A stretch of DNA of 26,484 nucleotides from positions 1 through 26,484 of IMG/VR virus record IMGVR_UViG_3300036770_002527. The stretch is one strand, 5' to 3'. A program made the translations under genes and the position numbers. The number at the start of each line of letters is the position of its first letter. The stretch's first letter is position 1. This stretch comes from a virus. Of this stretch, positions 3,550 to 25,582 are shown piece by piece. The notes below the pieces were generated by a model. The model had not been told where the DNA came from, made no database searches, and worked only from the letters and a program-made list of their open reading frames with translations.

Positions 3550-3557
3550 TACATTTG
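3550..3557 (+). promoter_or_regulatory. Bacteroidota-type -7 promoter box TACATTTG
   Basis: TACATTTG matches the Bacteroidota sigma-ABfr -7 consensus TAnnTTTG exactly and ends 4 nt before the ATG at 3562, so the transcript would be leaderless or nearly so. No TTG lies at the usual 19-21 nt upstream spacing. The box sits in the short gap before an accessory glycosyltransferase, as expected for an independently transcribed cargo gene. Confidence 0.5.
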
Positions 3558-3561
3558 AAGC

Positions 3562-4311
3562 ATGAAGGTTGCAATTCACTTTCCGGTCTACAAGCGCGCT
3601 CGCATTCGCAACATTGCGATGGACGCGCTCGACCGGGTGCGCGAGCAGTTCAAACGTCTCGGCATCGAGACGGAGGTGGTGGTGATTGGCGATGACAAAG
3701 ACCTACCTGCCGTCTGCGAAAAGCGGGGTTACCTGCATTTCGTTCACAAGAACTCGCCGGTCGGCGCCAAGTTCGAGATGGGCCTGCGGTGGATGCTGCG
3801 CAATCTTGAGTTCGATTACTTCATGGAGTACTGCTCGGACAACATCCTGCGCGAAGATTGGGCGGAGTTGATGGCCAAGGAACTCAAGGCCGGGCGGGCA
3901 TGGATTGCACACGACCAGTTTTACATCATTGACGCAGCGACCGGGCGCACGCATCTCTTCGGAGGCCGGGGCCAAAGCAACGTAGGTCGGTGCACCAAGC
4001 GCGACCTGCTGGTCAAATGCCAAAAGCATTTGGGGCGGTGCTACGACGGCGACTTGATGAGCGGAATGGATTCGTCATTTCGCTCGAACATTAGCCGGTG
4101 CAGCGACCAATTGACGTACCTGCTTAAGACCAAGACGCCGCTCATCGCAGACCTGAAGACCAAGGACAACATCAACAAGTTCGAGGGGTTTGCGCGCAAG
4201 TCCGAGCGGTTCCCACCGACGGAGGTGGTCGGCAGCTTTCCCGAACTTTCACAACTCAAATCCTTTCAAAATTTAGATCACAATGGCAACAACGGGGAAA
4301 ATCAGGAGTAA
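3562..4311 (+). CDS. GT-A fold glycosyltransferase-like protein (249 aa)
   Basis: The N-terminus MKVAIHFPVYKR followed by an ALDRVREQF helix, EVVVIGDD and a conserved-looking HKNSPVGAKFEMGLRWM helix has the layout of family 2-type GT-A glycosyltransferases. FMEYCSDNI (residues about 90-98) occupies the usual DxD metal/nucleotide-sugar position, with SDN in place of DxD. Acidic residues in DGDLMSGMDSSF could form the acceptor or catalytic region. There is no membrane anchor, so it should act in the cytoplasm. The gene lies between the adhesin block and the major tail protein with its own promoter box, and its last 29 nt run into the next gene. The substrate is unknown; glycosylation of virion protein or a host glycan is inference. 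Confidence 0.68.
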   Translation: MKVAIHFPVYKRARIRNIAMDALDRVREQFKRLGIETEVVVIGDDKDLPAVCEKRGYLHFVHKNSPVGAKFEMGLRWMLRNLEFDYFMEYCSDNILREDWAELMAKELKAGRAWIAHDQFYIIDAATGRTHLFGGRGQSNVGRCTKRDLLVKCQKHLGRCYDGDLMSGMDSSFRSNISRCSDQLTYLLKTKTPLIADLKTKDNINKFEGFARKSERFPPTEVVGSFPELSQLKSFQNLDHNGNNGENQE

Positions 4312-4804
4312 TGCCATCGGCATTTACATCAGCAACGAGAGTGCCGATAGCGGCACTTTCACGGGCGGAACTTACGGCGACAACACGTCGGAGAATGACA
4401 CGTGGGAAATCGTCGCCTGCGCGACGTCCGGCACGTTCAGCGGGTCGATGGAAGTCATCGACGCCACCACCAAAGACAACGACGGAGAGCGGGAAATCCT
4501 GACCTCATCGCTGTCCTGGACAATGGCCTGCGACGGCTTAATCGAGTACGGCCTGTCCAGCAACGTGAAGTCCGGCGCCGACCTGTTCACGCTGTGGAAG
4601 AACAAGACCAAAATCAAGTTGGCTTGGACGACCGGGGTGGATGGAGACATCATGTACTGGGGCAAGGGATACATCACCACGTACGAAGAGAGTGCGGGAT
4701 TGAACGAAGTGGCCTCGTTCTCAGTTAACTTTGAAGGCGACGGAACTGTGTACAAGGCGGTTCTTGACACTGCATCAGCTGTATTCAACAACAACAACAA
4801 CTAA
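4283..4804 (+). CDS. Major tail (tube) protein (173 aa)
   Basis: The protein starts MATTGKIRSNAIGIYI and continues with many short beta strands (TWEIVACATSGTFSGSMEVIDATTKD, then SLSWTMACD, FTLWKNKTKIKLAWTT and ASFSVNFEGDGTV). This is the pattern of siphovirus tail tube proteins of the TP901-1/Phage_tail_2 type, whose monomers form stacked hexameric rings. The length is typical. It is followed at a TAATG overlap by the tail assembly chaperone pair and then the tape measure gene, the canonical order. The start overlaps the preceding glycosyltransferase by 29 nt, consistent with a cargo gene inserted upstream. Confidence 0.85.
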   Translation: MATTGKIRSNAIGIYISNESADSGTFTGGTYGDNTSENDTWEIVACATSGTFSGSMEVIDATTKDNDGEREILTSSLSWTMACDGLIEYGLSSNVKSGADLFTLWKNKTKIKLAWTTGVDGDIMYWGKGYITTYEESAGLNEVASFSVNFEGDGTVYKAVLDTASAVFNNNNN

Positions 4805-5127
4805 TGGCCAACCAACTCCGCGGCGAATTCACAGTCCAATTGACCGACGACCTGTCGGTGGACGTTGTCATCAATATGTATGCACTGAATTTGTTTCTCG
4901 AAGAAGAGGGCGCGGGGTTGGCGGACCTTCAGGAGTTGCTCGAATCAAAGGCATTGCGCTCCCTGCCCCGCTTAGTGTGGGCAGGGGCGCGCACTGCTGC
5001 CCTTGTGAAGGACGCGCAGTTGCCGCTGACCTTCGAGAAGTTCGCCGCACTGTTCGGCTCCGTCGCGTGGGACGAGGTCAGCGAGAAGGTTCTCGCCTCG
5101 CTCCAACTTGACACAAAAAAAAAGTAA
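4804..5127 (+). CDS. Tail assembly chaperone, gpG-like (107 aa)
   Basis: This is a small acidic, mostly helical protein located between the tail tube and tape measure genes, the invariant place of lambda gpG-type chaperones. It begins in a TAATG overlap with the tail tube gene. Its last codons are a run of nine A followed by G (5115-5124), read as Lys-Lys-Lys before TAA. This is where a -1 frameshift would extend the protein into the following frame to give a longer gpGT-like form of about 227 residues. The chaperone coats the tape measure protein during tail assembly and is not expected in the mature virion. Confidence 0.85.
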   Translation: MANQLRGEFTVQLTDDLSVDVVINMYALNLFLEEEGAGLADLQELLESKALRSLPRLVWAGARTAALVKDAQLPLTFEKFAALFGSVAWDEVSEKVLASLQLDTKKK

Positions 5128-5152
5128 GCGATGGCGGCGGGGGTGACCCGCC
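5118..5152 (+). promoter_or_regulatory. Programmed -1 ribosomal frameshift element
   Basis: In the zero frame of the gpG-like gene the heptamer A AAA AAG occupies 5118-5124, immediately before the TAA at 5125-5127. Re-reading from 5124 gives GTA AGC GAT, then a glycine-rich linker and the downstream frame. That downstream frame has a TGA at 5109-5111, so the switch must happen between 5112 and 5127, which is exactly the A-run. A GC-rich hairpin follows: GGCGGG (5136-5141), 5-nt loop, CCCGCC (5147-5152), 11 nt after the heptamer. Confidence 0.85.
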
Positions 5153-5156
5153 CACC

Positions 5157-5486
5157 ATGCGCGACTACTACGTCGCGTGGCTGGAACGCGGGCGCGATCC
5201 CGATACCTTTTGGCGCAGTACCTTCGGGGAGGTAACCATTATGCTCCGCGCCTACGAATTCCAAGATGAAGTGCAGTGGATGCACACGTCTGCGTTGATG
5301 GCCCTGACGGCCAACATCAACCGCGGAAAGAACGCGCGCCCGTTCGAATGGAATGACTTCAACCCATACGCCAAGGCGAAGGTGAAGGTGAAGGCCGCCC
5401 CGAAGTTGGGCAAGAAGCACCACGACCTGTTCGCCAAGATGACTCAAAAGCTAAACTCCAATGGCGAAAAGCAACGCGATACTTAA
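5157..5486 (+). CDS. gpT-like C-terminal domain of the tail assembly chaperone, made by -1 frameshift
   Basis: The frame is open from 5112 and is contiguous in the -1 frame with the gpG-like gene, so the natural product is probably the frameshift fusion, joined through VSDGGGGDPPT to MRDYYVAWLERG. An ATG at 5157 could also initiate. The domain contains FWRSTFGEVTIMLRAYEF and ends in a Lys-rich tail, in keeping with gpT-type domains that contact the tape measure and tail tube proteins. The last 26 nt overlap the tape measure gene. The coordinates give the segment after the internal ATG; as a fusion the coding region is 4804-5486. Confidence 0.8.
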   Translation: MRDYYVAWLERGRDPDTFWRSTFGEVTIMLRAYEFQDEVQWMHTSALMALTANINRGKNARPFEWNDFNPYAKAKVKVKAAPKLGKKHHDLFAKMTQKLNSNGEKQRDT

Positions 5487-7770
5487 CATCATCTTTGGCG
5501 CGGACACCAAGCAGCTCGACCGGGCGCTCGGTGGCGTAGCCAAACGCCTGCGGGAAACCGCCGACAACCTCAACGGCCTCGGACAAAATCTGTCCCTTGG
5601 GCTGACCGCCCCCATCGCTGCGTTCGCCGGGCTTGCCACGAAGAGTTTTGTCGATAGCGCAAAAGCCATCGCCCAGGTGGAGGCCGCGGTGAAGTCCACG
5701 GGCGGGGCGGCGGGCAAGTCGGTGGACGGCCTCGCCAAGATGGCGTCGGAGTTGCAGCGGGTGTCGCTGTTCGACGATGACGAGATTCTGCAGAACGTCA
5801 CCGCCAACCTGCTCACGTTCACCAATGTCGCAGGCACGGAGTTTGACCGGGCGCAGCAGGCGGTGCTTGACCTTTCGACCCGCCTTGGCACAGACCTTAC
5901 ATCGGCCACGGTGCAGGTGGGCAAGGCGCTGAACGACCCCATCAAAGGCGTCACGGCCTTGGGTCGGGCGGGCGTGCAGTTCAGCGCGCAGCAGAAGGAA
6001 CTGATTGAAACGCTGGTCGAATCCGGCGACGTGGCCGGGGCGCAGGCGGTCATCTTGGGCGAACTTGAAACGCAGTTCGGGGGCGCTGCTGCGGCGGCTG
6101 CCAATGCCGACCCGTACACGCAGCTGGCCAATGAAATCGGCAACCTCGCCGAGGAGTTCGGCGGCATCATCAACGATGCGCTCAAGCCTTTGCTTGCTTT
6201 GATTCGGGACGTGGTAGATGAGGTGAAGGGGTGGAGCGACGAGACCAAGACCCTTGCCGTCGTGGTCGGCGGGCTGCTTGCCGCCATCGGCCCAACGCTC
6301 ATCGCGGTGAGCGGGATGATAAACGCCTTTGTGACCATCAAGGGTGCGATGAAATTGGCGAGGATTGAGCAGCTGAAACTGAACGCATCGGTGCTTGCCA
6401 ACCCTTATGTCATCGCAGCGGCGGCTGTTGTGGCACTTGGGATTGCCATCTACACGTTCACGCGACGGGCAGAGACGGCAGTACAGAAGATAGACAAACT
6501 GCGGGACAGTGTGAAGGGGCTTGCGGCGACCGAATCCATCTTGGAAATCAACCAAGCCATCGACGAGCAGGGCAAGAAGGTGGAGGAACTTCGGAACCTT
6601 TACAACACCTTGAGGGGCGGGCCGAGCAAGGAGCAACTGCTCAAGGAGTTGAAGGCCGCTGAAGAGACGTTAGAGGGTTACAAAAAACTCCGTGCGCAGA
6701 AGGAGAGCGACGCCTACTGGTCGCAGCGCAGGACGGCGGAGATAGAGGCGCAAGCCGAGGCCGAGCGCGAAGCGGCGGCAGAAGCAGAGCGGGTCGCGGC
6801 AGAGGCGAAGCAGCGCAGGAAAGAGGCGGAAGCGGCCGCAAAGGCGTACCTCACGCAACTTGACGACCGGCTTGCTGCTATCGACGCGGAGTACAAAATC
6901 ACGGGTGATCTAAACAACCGGGTGACGTCCCAAGCCGCCGCCTACCGCGACGCCGCCATCGCCGCCCAACTGCTCGGAAACGAAACCGAGGCGCTGCGAC
7001 TGAAGCAGGAGATGCTTGCACGGGTCGCTGCACCGGAGGCGCTTGCAGTTGCGCCATTAACCAGCGCTCCTGTGACCCCGGAAATCGTTGTCGGAAACAG
7101 TGCGGCCGATGCCATCCAAGCGCAAATAGACGCGACCACAGGCCTTGGCACAGCGTTCGATGACACCCGGCAGAAGGGCGTGGCATTTGCTACCGACGTG
7201 GCGAGCGCGATGGAGACGGCGGCGGAGGGCATGGCCGTATCGTTTGGTATGATGCTCGGCGAAAGCCTCGCTACCGGCAGCAAGTTGCAGGGGGTGGGCA
7301 CGATGATTTTGACCACCCTCGCCGACCTTGCCATTCAAGTGGGGCAAATCGCTATCGGGGTTGGCGTGAGCGTGGACGCCATTAAGAAGGCGCTGCTCAC
7401 CCTGAACCCCGTGGTGGCCATCATCGCCGGTGTGGCGTTGGTCGCGCTTGGCTCGGCAGCCAAGAACGCTCTGGCACAAAGCGCCGGGGGTGGCGGCTCA
7501 AACGGCGGAGGCGGCGGCATCATGTCCCGCCTTGGCTTCCCTGCATTTGCGCAGGGCGGTCTTGTCACCGGGCCGATGCTGGCGATGGTCGGCGACAATC
7601 CGTCCGGCAAGGAGGCCATCATCCCGTTTGAGCGCATGGGCGAGTTCATGAAGATGGCGGGGCAAGGTGAGCCGAAGACGCAGAACGTCGTAGTCACCGG
7701 GCGCATCAGCGGGCGGGACATCTACATCACCAACGAGCGGGCAGTTAAAGAGACCAAGCGATACAGATAA
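5461..7770 (+). CDS. Tail tape measure protein (769 aa)
   Basis: This is the longest gene product after the fusions, and its place after the chaperone pair identifies it. The N-terminus (LSLGLTAPIAAFAGLATKSF) and the following Ala-rich helices match the minor tail/tape measure family. Hydrophobic helices occur near residues 265-290, 310-330 and 613-667, and a charged Ala/Glu/Arg coiled coil near 430-463. A Gly-rich GGGGSNGGGGG linker and the ending AQGGLVTGPMLAMVGDNPSG are typical of the C-terminus that meets the tail tip. At roughly 0.15 nm per residue (a general rule), the tail would be on the order of 110-115 nm. It ends in a TAATG overlap with the tail-tip gene. Confidence 0.92.
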   Translation: MAKSNAILNIIFGADTKQLDRALGGVAKRLRETADNLNGLGQNLSLGLTAPIAAFAGLATKSFVDSAKAIAQVEAAVKSTGGAAGKSVDGLAKMASELQRVSLFDDDEILQNVTANLLTFTNVAGTEFDRAQQAVLDLSTRLGTDLTSATVQVGKALNDPIKGVTALGRAGVQFSAQQKELIETLVESGDVAGAQAVILGELETQFGGAAAAAANADPYTQLANEIGNLAEEFGGIINDALKPLLALIRDVVDEVKGWSDETKTLAVVVGGLLAAIGPTLIAVSGMINAFVTIKGAMKLARIEQLKLNASVLANPYVIAAAAVVALGIAIYTFTRRAETAVQKIDKLRDSVKGLAATESILEINQAIDEQGKKVEELRNLYNTLRGGPSKEQLLKELKAAEETLEGYKKLRAQKESDAYWSQRRTAEIEAQAEAEREAAAEAERVAAEAKQRRKEAEAAAKAYLTQLDDRLAAIDAEYKITGDLNNRVTSQAAAYRDAAIAAQLLGNETEALRLKQEMLARVAAPEALAVAPLTSAPVTPEIVVGNSAADAIQAQIDATTGLGTAFDDTRQKGVAFATDVASAMETAAEGMAVSFGMMLGESLATGSKLQGVGTMILTTLADLAIQVGQIAIGVGVSVDAIKKALLTLNPVVAIIAGVALVALGSAAKNALAQSAGGGGSNGGGGGIMSRLGFPAFAQGGLVTGPMLAMVGDNPSGKEAIIPFERMGEFMKMAGQGEPKTQNVVVTGRISGRDIYITNERAVKETKRYR

Positions 7771-12167: not shown

Positions 12168-12197
12168 TTGCACGTGAGACGCATTGACCTATCTTTG
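12168..12197 (+). promoter_or_regulatory. Bacteroidota consensus promoter for the recombination/replication operon
   Basis: TTG at 12168-12170 is separated by 19 nt from TATCTTTG at 12190-12197, a close match to the Bacteroidota TTG-N19-21-TAnnTTTG consensus. It stands between a terminator and the ATG at 12216, leaving a leader of roughly 15 nt. It implies a start at 12216 for the next gene, because the upstream in-frame GTG/TTG-type start at 12165 lies before the promoter. Confidence 0.85.
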
Positions 12198-18080: not shown

Positions 18081-18406
18081 AGTGGGATTACGAGGACCTT
18101 GAGCAGTACCGCATCACCCGGCAGGGGCGGTTCAGCAGCGCGGTGTTCACGGAGATGAAGGCCACCGAGCAGATGGCGCAGGAGTTCATGCAGCAAGCGC
18201 AGGCGATACGGGATTACATCGAGGCCGGGCAGGTGGAGACGACGGTGCTGTCTACCCCCATGCGCAAGAACGGGCGCCTGACGCAGATGTTTCGGCGGCA
18301 TGCGACCGACATGGATGTCGCCACGTTCCTTCGGCTGCGACAGCAGGCCGAGGCGCTGGAAGAGCGTGCGGGGTTTATTTTGGACGCGTTACGGCTTGGG
18401 ACATGA
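18077..18406 (+). CDS. Hypothetical helical protein (109 aa)
   Basis: I take the ATG at 18077 (ATGA overlap with the methyltransferase stop). The protein is almost entirely helical and charged (ATEQMAQEFMQQAQAIRDYI; VATFLRLRQQAEALEERAG), consistent with coiled coil. No family is recognised. It overlaps the next gene by 4 nt. Confidence 0.6.
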   Translation: MKWDYEDLEQYRITRQGRFSSAVFTEMKATEQMAQEFMQQAQAIRDYIEAGQVETTVLSTPMRKNGRLTQMFRRHATDMDVATFLRLRQQAEALEERAGFILDALRLGT

Positions 18407-19056
18407 CAACCATCATCTACACCAACTGGAGGCGCGCAGCGCAGTTGCAAGGCATCGTGGGCAGAGCGATTGACCAGACGGCATTCCCGCAGGTTCACGT
18501 CATCGACAACGCGTCCGGCACGCGGCACGCATACCAAGGCAAAGCGCACAAGATGGTGCACGCGGACAACTCGCTCAAGTGCTGGGCACGGTGGGTCGAA
18601 GCGATGCAGGTGGACACGCGCTACGTATGCATCATGGACGATGACCTGACCTTCACGCGGCCAACGGTCATCGAGGAGTGCCAGGCGTACATGGACGAAC
18701 ACAAAGGCGTGCAGTGCATCGGGGCGTTTGGGGTGATGCTACCCAAAGGCCGCAGGTATTGGGAGGGCAGGCACACCAAGGCTAAGCACGACACGACGGT
18801 TGCGGTGCAGGTGGTAAAGGGCAGGTTCATGTTCATCCGGCGGGACGCGCTCGATGGGCTGGGAATGGAGCCGGACCTCACCTGCGACGACATCAAGGTG
18901 AGTGCGCACCTGTGGGATAAGAGATTGCCGGGCTTCCTGCATCGGGCGTTCAAGGACCTCGTCGAAGGGCCGGAAGCATTGCACGCAGATCCCGTGCAGA
19001 GGATGAAGAGGAACGAGGCTGCGGCCAAATACTTCCCCGATGCCAAGCGTACCTAA
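18403..19056 (+). CDS. GT2-like glycosyltransferase (217 aa)
   Basis: The N-terminal IIYTNWRRAAQLQGIVG and VHVIDNASG follow the GT-A pattern (strand, helix, then the D-N/G acceptor of the nucleotide). CIMDDDLTF near residues 74-82 is a DxD motif for metal and sugar nucleotide. VVKGRFMFIRRDAL and LTCDDIKVSAHL fit the acceptor side of family 2 enzymes. There is no membrane segment. It lies beside the DNA methyltransferase, so it could modify DNA bases, but the fold equally suits protein or glycan acceptors. Its 3' end overlaps the HNH gene by 17 nt. Confidence 0.78.
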   Translation: MTTIIYTNWRRAAQLQGIVGRAIDQTAFPQVHVIDNASGTRHAYQGKAHKMVHADNSLKCWARWVEAMQVDTRYVCIMDDDLTFTRPTVIEECQAYMDEHKGVQCIGAFGVMLPKGRRYWEGRHTKAKHDTTVAVQVVKGRFMFIRRDALDGLGMEPDLTCDDIKVSAHLWDKRLPGFLHRAFKDLVEGPEALHADPVQRMKRNEAAAKYFPDAKRT

Positions 19057-22709: not shown

Positions 22710-23322
22710 AAAGAAAGCTGACAAGGTGGCTCCACCTGCACCAGCGCCTACAAGTTTGGGCGACCTGCTTGACGCGCGCGGGTCAGACAAGAATACTGTG
22801 CATTCCTACGGCCCCGTTTATGACCTCATCTTTGCGCAGCAACTGGTCAAAAACCGACCGCTCAAAGTGCTGGAAATTGGCATCTACAAGGGTGCATCGC
22901 TGCAGGCATTTGCCTCGCTTCCCTACGTGCAAACGGTGATTGGCATCGACAACGCGGCGTCGGGCGTAGCGGAACCGCAAGGATTGAACATCGACAAGGT
23001 AAAGGTCTATTGGGGTGCGGAGTTTGATGCCTACTGCGACGACACGTTGCAGATGCTGCTGGATGTTCATGGCAAGTTCGACGTCATCATCGACGACGGC
23101 CCGCACTCGTGGGAATCGCAGGTCTGGTTTTTTAAAAACTACGATACCCTGCTTAACGATGGCGGCGTGCTTGTCTGTGAGGACATTTGGGAGCGGCACA
23201 TCGAGCGCCTTGCCTCGCTCAAAAAAGAGTTGAATCTGTACATTCTTGACTTGCGTTTGAATAAAAACACGCACGACAACGAAATCATCGCGCTCAAATA
23301 CAAGCACGCAAATGCCGTATAA
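22699..23322 (+). CDS. SAM-dependent methyltransferase, macrocin-O-methyltransferase-like (207 aa)
   Basis: I place the start at GTG 22699, overlapping the portal stop by 11 nt; an ATG-led extension to 22465 would lie inside the portal gene. After a Lys/Pro-rich leader and LGDLLDARGSDKNTVHSYG, motif I is VLEIGIYKGASLQAF (about 55-69), and DVIIDDGPHSWESQ (about 128) with FFKNYDTLLNDGGVLVCEDIW matches TylF/macrocin-type O-methyltransferases, which act on sugars. It is an extra gene inside the portal-protease-capsid block, bounded by 10-bp direct repeats. A role in methylating glycans added by the phage glycosyltransferases is inference. Confidence 0.8.
   Translation: MPYKKKADKVAPPAPAPTSLGDLLDARGSDKNTVHSYGPVYDLIFAQQLVKNRPLKVLEIGIYKGASLQAFASLPYVQTVIGIDNAASGVAEPQGLNIDKVKVYWGAEFDAYCDDTLQMLLDVHGKFDVIIDDGPHSWESQVWFFKNYDTLLNDGGVLVCEDIWERHIERLASLKKELNLYILDLRLNKNTHDNEIIALKYKHANAV
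22700..22709 (+). repeat. Left copy of TGCCGTATAA direct repeat flanking the methyltransferase
   Basis: TGCCGTATAA contains the portal's last codons and stop, and lies one base into the methyltransferase GTG start. An identical copy is at 23313-23322, one base into the next gene's ATG start. Confidence 0.6.
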
Positions 23323-25522
23323 CGACTACCCTCAAAGCGTGACCGACGCAGCCCGCCGGGGCATCGCCCTGAACGAGGAGGTCGGCGGTCGCTGCGCTAC
23401 GGACGTGGGCAAGGAGACGGCGCGCATACTCGCCAACCGCGAGACCATCAGCGAAGAGCGGACCGTGCGTATGTACTCGTTTCTCTCCCGCGCCCGCACT
23501 TATTACAACCCCGACGACACCGAAGCCTGCGGCACCATCTCCTACCTCCTTTGGGGTGGAGACCCTGGGCTATCTTGGGCGTCAAAAAAAGTCGAAGAGA
23601 TGCAAGAGAATAACAAGACCAATGAGAGCGAACTGCGCGCCCGCTACGGCGACAATGTCGAAGTGCGCGCCGTCGAAGTTCGTGCCCAGGAGGACATGAC
23701 CATCGAAGGCTACGCCTCGGTGTTCGGCGATGAGTATGACCTCGGCTACTTCACCGAGCGCGTGGCGCCGGGGGCTTTCGATGGCCGCACGAACGACGAC
23801 GTTCGCCTGCTCATCAATCACACCGGCGTGCCCCTCGCTCGCACTACGAACAACACCCTGACGCTGACCATTGACGAGCGTGGCCTGCACTACCGCGCCA
23901 AACTCGCCGATACGCAGGAAGGGCGTGATCTGTACACGCTCATCCAACGGGGCGACATTACCCAATCCTCGTTCGCCTTTACCATCGAGGACGACGAATG
24001 GAGCGGCGACCGGCGCACCCGCACCATCAACCGGGTCGGGCAGTTGTACGACGTCAGCCCGGTCACCTACCCCGCTTCGCCCACCACCACCGTGCAAGCG
24101 CGGGAGATGGCGATGTTCACCGAGCAAGCGCCCGAGCCTGCGCCCGCACCGGTCGCAGAGGCTGAACCCGAAATTGTAGCAACCCCTATCTTTGAACGCA
24201 AATCAGATAAATTCCAGACCATGAATCTCAATGACATGAAGGCGCTCCGCGCCAACAAAATCAGCCAACTGACCGCCTTGAACGAGGGCGCGACGTTGCA
24301 GGCCCGCGGCTACACCGAGGGAGAGGAAGTCACCATCGACGCCTTGAACGCTGACATCGCAGAACTCGACGCCAAAATCGAGCGCGCGGAGAAGGTGGAG
24401 GCGCAGGTCGCACGTGCGGCTTTCGGCTCTGCACCCTCCAAGAGCGAGGTTGTTGAGCAGTCCAAGTTGCAGGAGCGTTACAGCTTCAGCAAGTTGGTAC
24501 GCGAGTCGATGACGGGTCGCCTCACCGGCCTCGAAGCAGAGATGAGCCAGCAGGCCGCCAAGGAGTTGAAGGACTCCGGCGTCGGCATCCGTGGCCTCGC
24601 TCAAATCCCCGGCTTCTTGATGCGCGCGACCTCGACCATCGGCGGCACGAACGTCCCCGGACAGTCGAACCTCAACCTGCTCGAGGGCTTGGTCGCCACT
24701 CCCATCTTGGAGCAAGCGGGTGCAAACGTGTTGCGCGGATTGACCGGCAACATCAACTTGCCGTCTTTGGGCAGCGACTACACGGACATCATCAACGAGA
24801 CCGCATCTGCTACCAGCGGCGCAGCGATTGCAGCGCGTCAGTTGGCTCCGCAGCGTGTGGCGTCTCGCATCGACGTGACCAACGAGTTGCTCGCGGCCAT
24901 GAACCAGTCGGTGGATGCGACCATCCAGCGTCAGTTCGCCAAGGCGACCGCGTCACAGGTGGACGAGATGTTCCTCACTAAGGTCATTGCTGCTGCTGCA
25001 TCAACGTTCGTAAAGCGTTTTGAGACGCCCGCTGCTACCGTTGCAGGCTTGACCTCGGCAGTCGCTTCGAAATTGATTGGCTCGCTCGGTGATGCCAACG
25101 GGCTCGGCAACAACGTGGCGTTCATCACGTCGCACGGCTTGCTCGCTACGGCGCGCTACACGCCCACCGTTTCCGGCGGTGCAATCCCCATCATGCAAGA
25201 TGACGAGGTCTTCGGCTACATGGCTTACGGCACGAGCATCGCCTCGACCGGCCTCATCGCCGATGCTTCTTACGACATCTACTCCGAGGTGTACGCGAAC
25301 ACGACCGCGACGACGGCCATCGGCAATGAGGCCGACCTCGTGCCCATCGTGATCGCGAACATGGAGAACTGCTTTGTGGCATACTGGGGTGGCGGTGCTG
25401 CTGACCTCATCATTGACCCGTACACGAACGCTGACACGGGCATCACCCGTCTCATCCTCAACACGTACGCTGACGCGGACTTCGCTCACACGGGCGATGT
25501 TCGGTTCACGGTCGGCGCATAA
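23312..25522 (+). CDS. Prohead protease-major capsid protein fusion with N-terminal accessory domain (736 aa)
   Basis: Residues 1 to about 97 form an accessory domain (MPYNDYPQSVTDAARRGIAL ... CGTISYLLWGGDPGLSWA) that I recall in Bacteroidota phage and genome proteins. Residues about 115-270 are an HK97-type prohead protease: EGYASVFGDEYD, LINHTGVPLART (catalytic His, about 170), ITQSSFAF (catalytic Ser, about 219) and LYDVSPVTYPA. A Pro/Ala/Glu linker follows. Residues 304-736 (from MNLNDMKALRANK) match an HK97-fold capsid protein with an N-terminal helical delta-like region and a GAxxLRGLTG...PSLG start. An internal promoter box and ATG sit at the capsid start. The protease should cleave the scaffold region and free the capsid. 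Confidence 0.9.
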   Translation: MPYNDYPQSVTDAARRGIALNEEVGGRCATDVGKETARILANRETISEERTVRMYSFLSRARTYYNPDDTEACGTISYLLWGGDPGLSWASKKVEEMQENNKTNESELRARYGDNVEVRAVEVRAQEDMTIEGYASVFGDEYDLGYFTERVAPGAFDGRTNDDVRLLINHTGVPLARTTNNTLTLTIDERGLHYRAKLADTQEGRDLYTLIQRGDITQSSFAFTIEDDEWSGDRRTRTINRVGQLYDVSPVTYPASPTTTVQAREMAMFTEQAPEPAPAPVAEAEPEIVATPIFERKSDKFQTMNLNDMKALRANKISQLTALNEGATLQARGYTEGEEVTIDALNADIAELDAKIERAEKVEAQVARAAFGSAPSKSEVVEQSKLQERYSFSKLVRESMTGRLTGLEAEMSQQAAKELKDSGVGIRGLAQIPGFLMRATSTIGGTNVPGQSNLNLLEGLVATPILEQAGANVLRGLTGNINLPSLGSDYTDIINETASATSGAAIAARQLAPQRVASRIDVTNELLAAMNQSVDATIQRQFAKATASQVDEMFLTKVIAAAASTFVKRFETPAATVAGLTSAVASKLIGSLGDANGLGNNVAFITSHGLLATARYTPTVSGGAIPIMQDDEVFGYMAYGTSIASTGLIADASYDIYSEVYANTTATTAIGNEADLVPIVIANMENCFVAYWGGGAADLIIDPYTNADTGITRLILNTYADADFAHTGDVRFTVGA
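23313..23322 (+). repeat. Right copy of TGCCGTATAA direct repeat
   Basis: It contains the last codons and stop of the methyltransferase and codons 1-4 of the protease-capsid gene. It is identical to 22700-22709. Confidence 0.6.
24187..24194 (+). promoter_or_regulatory. Internal -7 promoter box before the capsid domain
   Basis: TATCTTTG, an exact copy of the box at 12190, lies 26 nt before an in-frame ATG at 24221 that begins the capsid part of the fusion. No TTG lies at 19-21 nt upstream (the nearest is 10 nt away), so strength is uncertain. The leader between box and ATG is A-rich, unlike the coding sequence around it. Confidence 0.5.
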
Positions 25523-25547
25523 GCTGCTAGATTGGTTGTTGGTTGGG

Positions 25548-25582
25548 AAGGCCGGGGCATCGTCCCCGGCTTTCTTATTTTT
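25548..25582 (+). terminator. Rho-independent terminator after the capsid gene
   Basis: GCCGGGG (25551-25557) pairs with CCCCGGC (25564-25570) around a 6-nt loop, extended by A-T and G-T pairs, then TTTCTTATTTTT (25571-25582). It lies in the 65-nt gap between the capsid and connector genes, which would attenuate transcription after the most abundantly needed product. Confidence 0.85.

Follow-up and report, generated by a model that had tools for sequence, protein, structure and literature searches.

We find that a phage gene in which a prohead protease is joined in frame to a major capsid protein (MCP) is best read as a gene with two products, because the start codon heading its MCP part is invariant among relatives, a promoter-like box shortly upstream is conserved as DNA, and a terminator closes an MCP-only unit. 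The gene comes from an IMG/VR virus record, 26,484 bases long and called the window here. In the mechanism we propose, one gene would yield two proteins with a common C terminus: a long one (protease plus MCP), translated from position 23312 on a late transcript, and a short one, free MCP, starting at ATG 24221. Free MCP would come mainly from a short mRNA running from a host-type (Bacteroidota sigma-A) promoter at 24187 to the terminator at 25544-25577, with a possible further contribution from translation starts at 24221 on the long transcript. A few fusion chains and many free MCP chains would then co-assemble, so that the prohead interior would receive a small proportion of protease, which would trim delta domain and linker there. 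In HK97 proheads, about 60 proteases accompany 415 MCPs (PMC12749128), and a 1:1 fusion alone puts one protease on every subunit; in the proposed model, the nested MCP unit would solve this stoichiometry problem. We give the whole model (fusion plus free MCP from a nested promoter, co-assembled) a probability of about 0.7; the fusion, the conserved ATG, the box kept as DNA, the terminator, and the lack of Shine-Dalgarno sites are seen in the sequence, and promoter firing, free MCP as the major product, and co-assembly are the steps that we infer.

The fused ORF (Table 1) runs without an internal stop and combines an S78/HK97 prohead protease with an HK97-type MCP, in agreement with the original observation that protease and capsid share one frame. 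The protease part matches PF04586 (E 6.7e-41, 140.6 bits against a cut-off of 21) and TIGR01543 (90.2 bits, cut-off 59), and its H170 and S219/S220, looked at as candidate catalytic His and Ser, are invariant among relatives. The MCP part scores 42.4 bits against TIGR01554 (cut-off 27.5) and 21.4 against PF05065, the latter under the gathering score of 24.2. A single family, phrog_617, covers both parts, placing the gene with the PHROG 617-type fusions. AlphaFold, run on seven sequences, gave a mean pLDDT of 34 and a model that is poor except in the accessory domain and the two predicted helices of the delta-like region, the only parts above 50 (about 57-74 over most of the delta-like region). 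Among close relatives, the accessory domain is present, deleted in frame (MPYNDYPQ-KAEEMQENN), or absent, and the family that it matches, phrog_2859, is one of unknown function. Other genes seen in the window include a methyltransferase gene (PF13578; 22696-23322), between the portal gene and the fused gene, and a family 2 glycosyltransferase (18403-19056), among the genes upstream of the terminase.

Table 1. Features of the fused protease-MCP gene and its surroundings (window coordinates)
Feature	Position	Strand	Remarks
Intergenic promoter-like site TTG-N19-TATCTTTG, used for comparison	12168..12197	+	Octamer at 12190; relatives G001 and G004 have the site too
Fused ORF: accessory domain, prohead protease, linker, and MCP, 736 aa	23312..25522	+	Open in all relatives at the junction
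N-terminal accessory domain, residues 1-95, modular	23312..23596	+	phrog_2859 match, residues 4-98; some relatives lack it through in-frame loss
Peptidase_S78 prohead protease domain, residues 116-267	23657..24112	+	PF04586, TIGR01543
Variable linker, residues 268-303	24113..24220	+	Four unrelated-looking linker types among relatives
Putative Bacteroidota -7 promoter box TATCTTTG (TAHHTTTG)	24187..24194	+	TAHHTTTG kept in all 101 loci (18 distinct junctions); flanks diverged
Predicted transcription start (24199-24200) and A-rich MCP mRNA leader, 21-22 nt	24199..24220	+	Position taken from F. johnsoniae, where 4-5 nt separate box and start
Nested MCP reading frame from internal ATG, 433 aa	24221..25522	+	ATG invariant; aligned with MCP start of split relatives
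Delta-like coiled-coil region of MCP, residues 306-371	24227..24424	+	Two predicted helices; TIGR01554 match from residue 308
Intrinsic terminator past MCP stop	25544..25577	+	14-bp stem plus T tail

Three scans of IMG/VR viral contigs returned 101 fused loci of the same clade covering the junction, some of which are one contig with different flanks, and we take the 18 distinct 60-nt upstream sequences among them as the meaningful sample size. A comparison of relatives for stops between protease and MCP had been proposed as a check: the frame is open at the junction in all of them, and the stop seen in one contig (L003/L045) falls later, within the MCP. Four linker types lead into the MCP (PIFERKSDKFQT before MNLNDMK, TTFDPKPFTLPY before MNLNDMK, N/S-TFERNKPFAD before MKLNDLK, and RTFASEPLKIRH before MNLNDLK). 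The internal ATG is invariant in every relative covering the junction, and conservation begins sharply at this codon: the linkers before it share little, and NLNDMKALRA or KLNDLKALRA follows it almost without change. A point against the model is that the A at -3 is not conserved in lineage 2. Distant relatives with split genes (about 27-40% identity) have a protease that ends upstream and an MCP with its own start codon at the matching place, these MCPs mostly beginning with an MK-S-rich sequence such as MKSSIELKE. We hold use of the nested MCP start to be very probable.

The junction could also be read as giving the fusion as sole product, with the protease cleaving itself in the linker and all MCP beginning as a 1:1 fusion. 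Such a reading agrees with the frame being open in all relatives and with the polar, variable linker, and S78 proteases are known to trim MCP N termini, as established for HK97. We nevertheless consider it quite improbable, since it would supply one protease per subunit against the about 60 per 415 of HK97 (PMC12749128) and leaves unexplained the invariant Met at the end of a variable linker, the box, and the MCP start shared with split relatives.

The junction proved to be as originally described to the base, with TATCTTTG followed, after a 26-nt gap, by the in-frame ATG; the linker peptide FERKSDKFQT is read in translation, and the stretch called A-rich has, as predicted leader, 45% A versus 23% in the window. 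We dropped the octamer count as evidence for the box (TATCTTTG occurs 2 times in the window versus 0.28 expected and TANNTTTG 7 times versus 5.8), as the count by itself is weak evidence, and the case for the box beyond chance rests on the relatives. A TAHHTTTG box and the ATG are found in 18/18 distinct junctions, 23 or 26 nt apart throughout the clade of the window, amid linker DNA that is 17-61% identical between lineages (downstream of the box, 4-14 of 23 nt agree; upstream of it, 9-13 of 24 nt). The lineages carry different variants (TATCTTTG, TACCTTTG, and TACATTTG), all of which fit TAHHTTTG, and the six informative box bases never change.

Read in frame, the box spells xxT-Ann-TTT-Gxx. 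Its first codon is CCT, ACT, TCT, AAT, or CGT (P, T, S, N, or R) with a constant wobble T, third-position T usage in these genes being 8-15%, and its Phe codon is always TTT although the genes prefer TTC. In a codon alignment of five lineages, which is anchored on the box and built from related lineages, so that these wobble, TTT, and window probabilities are descriptive only, the box column is the 1 of 13 invariant Phe columns that is all TTT, the third base is invariant in 10 of 112 columns with at least three amino acids, and, of 2413 windows, the box is the only one in which six bases stay fixed while several amino acids change. A control comes from the major tail gene, near the end of which a chance TAACTTTG octamer (4726-4733) lies within the conserved peptide VNFEG; it is kept in lineages 1 and 2 and reads TAACTTCG in lineage 3, where the Phe codon is TTC, so that protein constraint alone did not hold that box. 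The junction octamer could itself owe its conservation to the encoded peptide x-T/I-F-E/D, which might for instance be a protease site, its likeness to a promoter being accidental; the Phe is conserved and followed by E, D, or A, and the tail gene shows that in some lineages protein constraint can hold a box of this kind within coding sequence. This is the least probable of the alternatives, however, as five amino acids occur as the first residue, all with T in the wobble position, and the junction Phe is never TTC, whereas the tail gene shows that codon. Together, the comparisons support conservation of the junction box at the DNA level rather than as protein.

The conserved motif corresponds to the refined Bacteroidota -7 element, TAHHTTTG, which in Flavobacterium johnsoniae has its G at -5, with transcription starting 4-5 nt downstream, leaders averaging 33 nt, and a -33 motif that is hardly visible (PMC6847099); in B. 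thetaiotaomicron a -33 element is seen (PMC7366714). The junction box thus shares with Bacteroidota sigma-A (ABfr) promoters the -7 box, a short leader, and the lack of a Shine-Dalgarno sequence (PMC6847099), and differs from them in lying within coding sequence and in missing the -33 element: no TTG or TTTG occurs at spacers of 17-22 upstream of it in any lineage, unlike the intergenic site at 12190, which has TTG at N19 spacing. Scanning for sigma-70 promoters found none at the junction box. No Shine-Dalgarno core precedes 24221, and such cores are not above background in the phage's genes, which are A-rich at -12, -13, and -15 in the pattern described for Bacteroidota (an analysis of 26 listed start positions, two of them misplaced, with the trend unchanged). 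Because of the TAHHTTTG box, the lack of Shine-Dalgarno excess, and these A-rich positions, the host is likely a member of the Bacteroidota. Among 395 genomes from the phylum of a Bacteroidetes MAG, we found no close relative of the fusion or the terminase, and a search of genome contigs gave only distant split relatives. We predict, with good but lesser confidence than for the nested start, that the junction box acts as a promoter. RNA folding around the internal start gave no consistent signal; a small GC-rich hairpin (24260-24275), about 20 nt past the ATG in the KALRA codons, folds in 3 of 4 lineages.

The gene was originally suggested to retain an old intergenic leader and promoter and perhaps to give two products. 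The conserved ATG, the box conserved as DNA, and the terminator make two products the best reading, albeit with the canonical -33 element absent, and the claim of retention finds no support: in the sampled split relatives, the intergenic leader before the MCP is A-rich, but we did not find the TANNTTTG box there, and a sister fused lineage (L160/L161) has the ATG and no box. As these split relatives and this sister lineage both lack it, the box may have been gained after the fusion. In a tree of 45 MCPs, the fused or split label changes three times; the window group and L161 form one fused clade (support 98/95), and L184-L188 are a separate fused group. This second fused family (L184-L188 and kin) comprises about 27 loci, among which MCP identity falls as low as 41%, and no TANNTTTG box was found in it. 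It keeps an in-frame ATG behind an A-rich stretch, and the residues around that codon vary (MENENKK, MGKENKK, MENTNIA, MKDSGNT, and MEDNKNA). The protease-MCP linker of this family (L184-L188 and L209-L237) is very acidic and Glu-rich, and an EAR motif is repeated, as PTEAR before the internal start and GDSEAR in the MCP; the two motifs could be protease cut sites. Two further loci proved to be split: MT835917, and L163, which we rejected as a case of fused plus free MCP. At 3652-6149, L163 carries its protease separately, followed by a tandem pair of MCP paralogues; the first paralogue has no delta-like N-terminal region and a start overlapping the protease stop.

These relatives bear on a third alternative, in which short MCP arises solely because ribosomes also start at ATG 24221 within the long mRNA and the box is no promoter. 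The A-rich leader and the ATG are conserved, the ATG is present in the second fused family and in L160/L161 despite the missing box, and start sites in Bacteroidota need no Shine-Dalgarno sequence (PMC6847099), as genes here lack one; all this fits. What it does not explain is why TAHHTTTG should be fixed as DNA 23-26 nt upstream, the leader between box and ATG having diverged, and we regard it as unlikely, though the strongest of the three.

A hairpin equivalent to the strong terminator of the window follows the MCP in all four lineages, and the fusion and the nested MCP have the same frame, the same stop, and this common terminator. Box, leader, ATG, MCP, and terminator would thereby make up a complete monocistronic MCP unit, predicted to be nested in the fusion gene.

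Nesting of an assembly protein has a precedent in lambda, where Nu3, a smaller in-frame assembly protein, is made from an internal start within protease gene C. There, the nesting is of a scaffold and at the level of translation, the MCP being a separate gene, and a Shine-Dalgarno sequence of the kind sought for such an enterobacterial-type start does not precede 24221. The HK97/D3 head genes (gp4 protease, gp5 MCP) have the same gene order, domain families, and MCP N-terminal delta scaffold domain, and differ in that protease and MCP are separate ORFs; their low protease-to-MCP ratio is a likeness that is only proposed for the phage fusion (PMC12749128). Actinophage fusions (EpicDab and Powelldog) and PHROG 617 likewise have protease and MCP in one ORF; the excerpts of the reports on them describe no nested MCP promoter, and the internal ATG discussed there for EpicDab precedes the protease, not the MCP (PMC9671378, PMC12760985). 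The closest parallel is herpesvirus UL26/UL26.5, in which the protease is joined in frame to the assembly protein and a separate promoter within the protease ORF drives the smaller product, with 3'-coterminal transcripts (PMC2949831); in the phage, the promoter is predicted. The herpesvirus gene belongs to a eukaryotic virus and another protease family, and its nested product is scaffold, not MCP, whereas the phage scaffold would be the delta domain of the MCP. The likeness would be a parallel in mechanism, not membership.

Initial literature queries on nested MCP starts gave nothing. Protease-MCP fusions are already known; measured against the excerpts on them, a nested promoter conserved as DNA, and working like that of UL26/UL26.5, would be new, and the stoichiometry problem of fused protease-capsid genes goes unexplained in those excerpts. 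This clade offers a concrete, testable answer, as the predicted promoter overlaps codons that allow silent changes at their wobble bases. If it is true, phage and herpesvirus would have reached the same solution, an assembly protein nested in a protease gene with its own promoter. We lean, less firmly than for the model itself, toward the broader view that phages with fused protease and MCP keep a nested MCP gene, through a linker-codon promoter, maintained by selection on the DNA, in this probable Bacteroidota-phage clade and an A-rich internal start in the second family, and so combine minor protease-bearing with major free subunits as a phage counterpart of UL26/UL26.5. This suggests that annotators should check protease-MCP fusions generally for a second product.

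Similar boxes occur elsewhere in these genomes. TAHHTTTG followed by exactly 4 nt and an ATG is found at 3550-3564 in the window, at 10728 in L112, and after the MCP terminator in L114, L116, L120, and L122-L125. Just after the MCP terminator, lineages 2-4 carry the box as TACTTTTG or TATTTTTG and the window carries it as TATTTTTA; part of it overlaps the terminator T tract. If the box is a -7 element, the layout with 4 nt before the ATG would give leaderless mRNAs.
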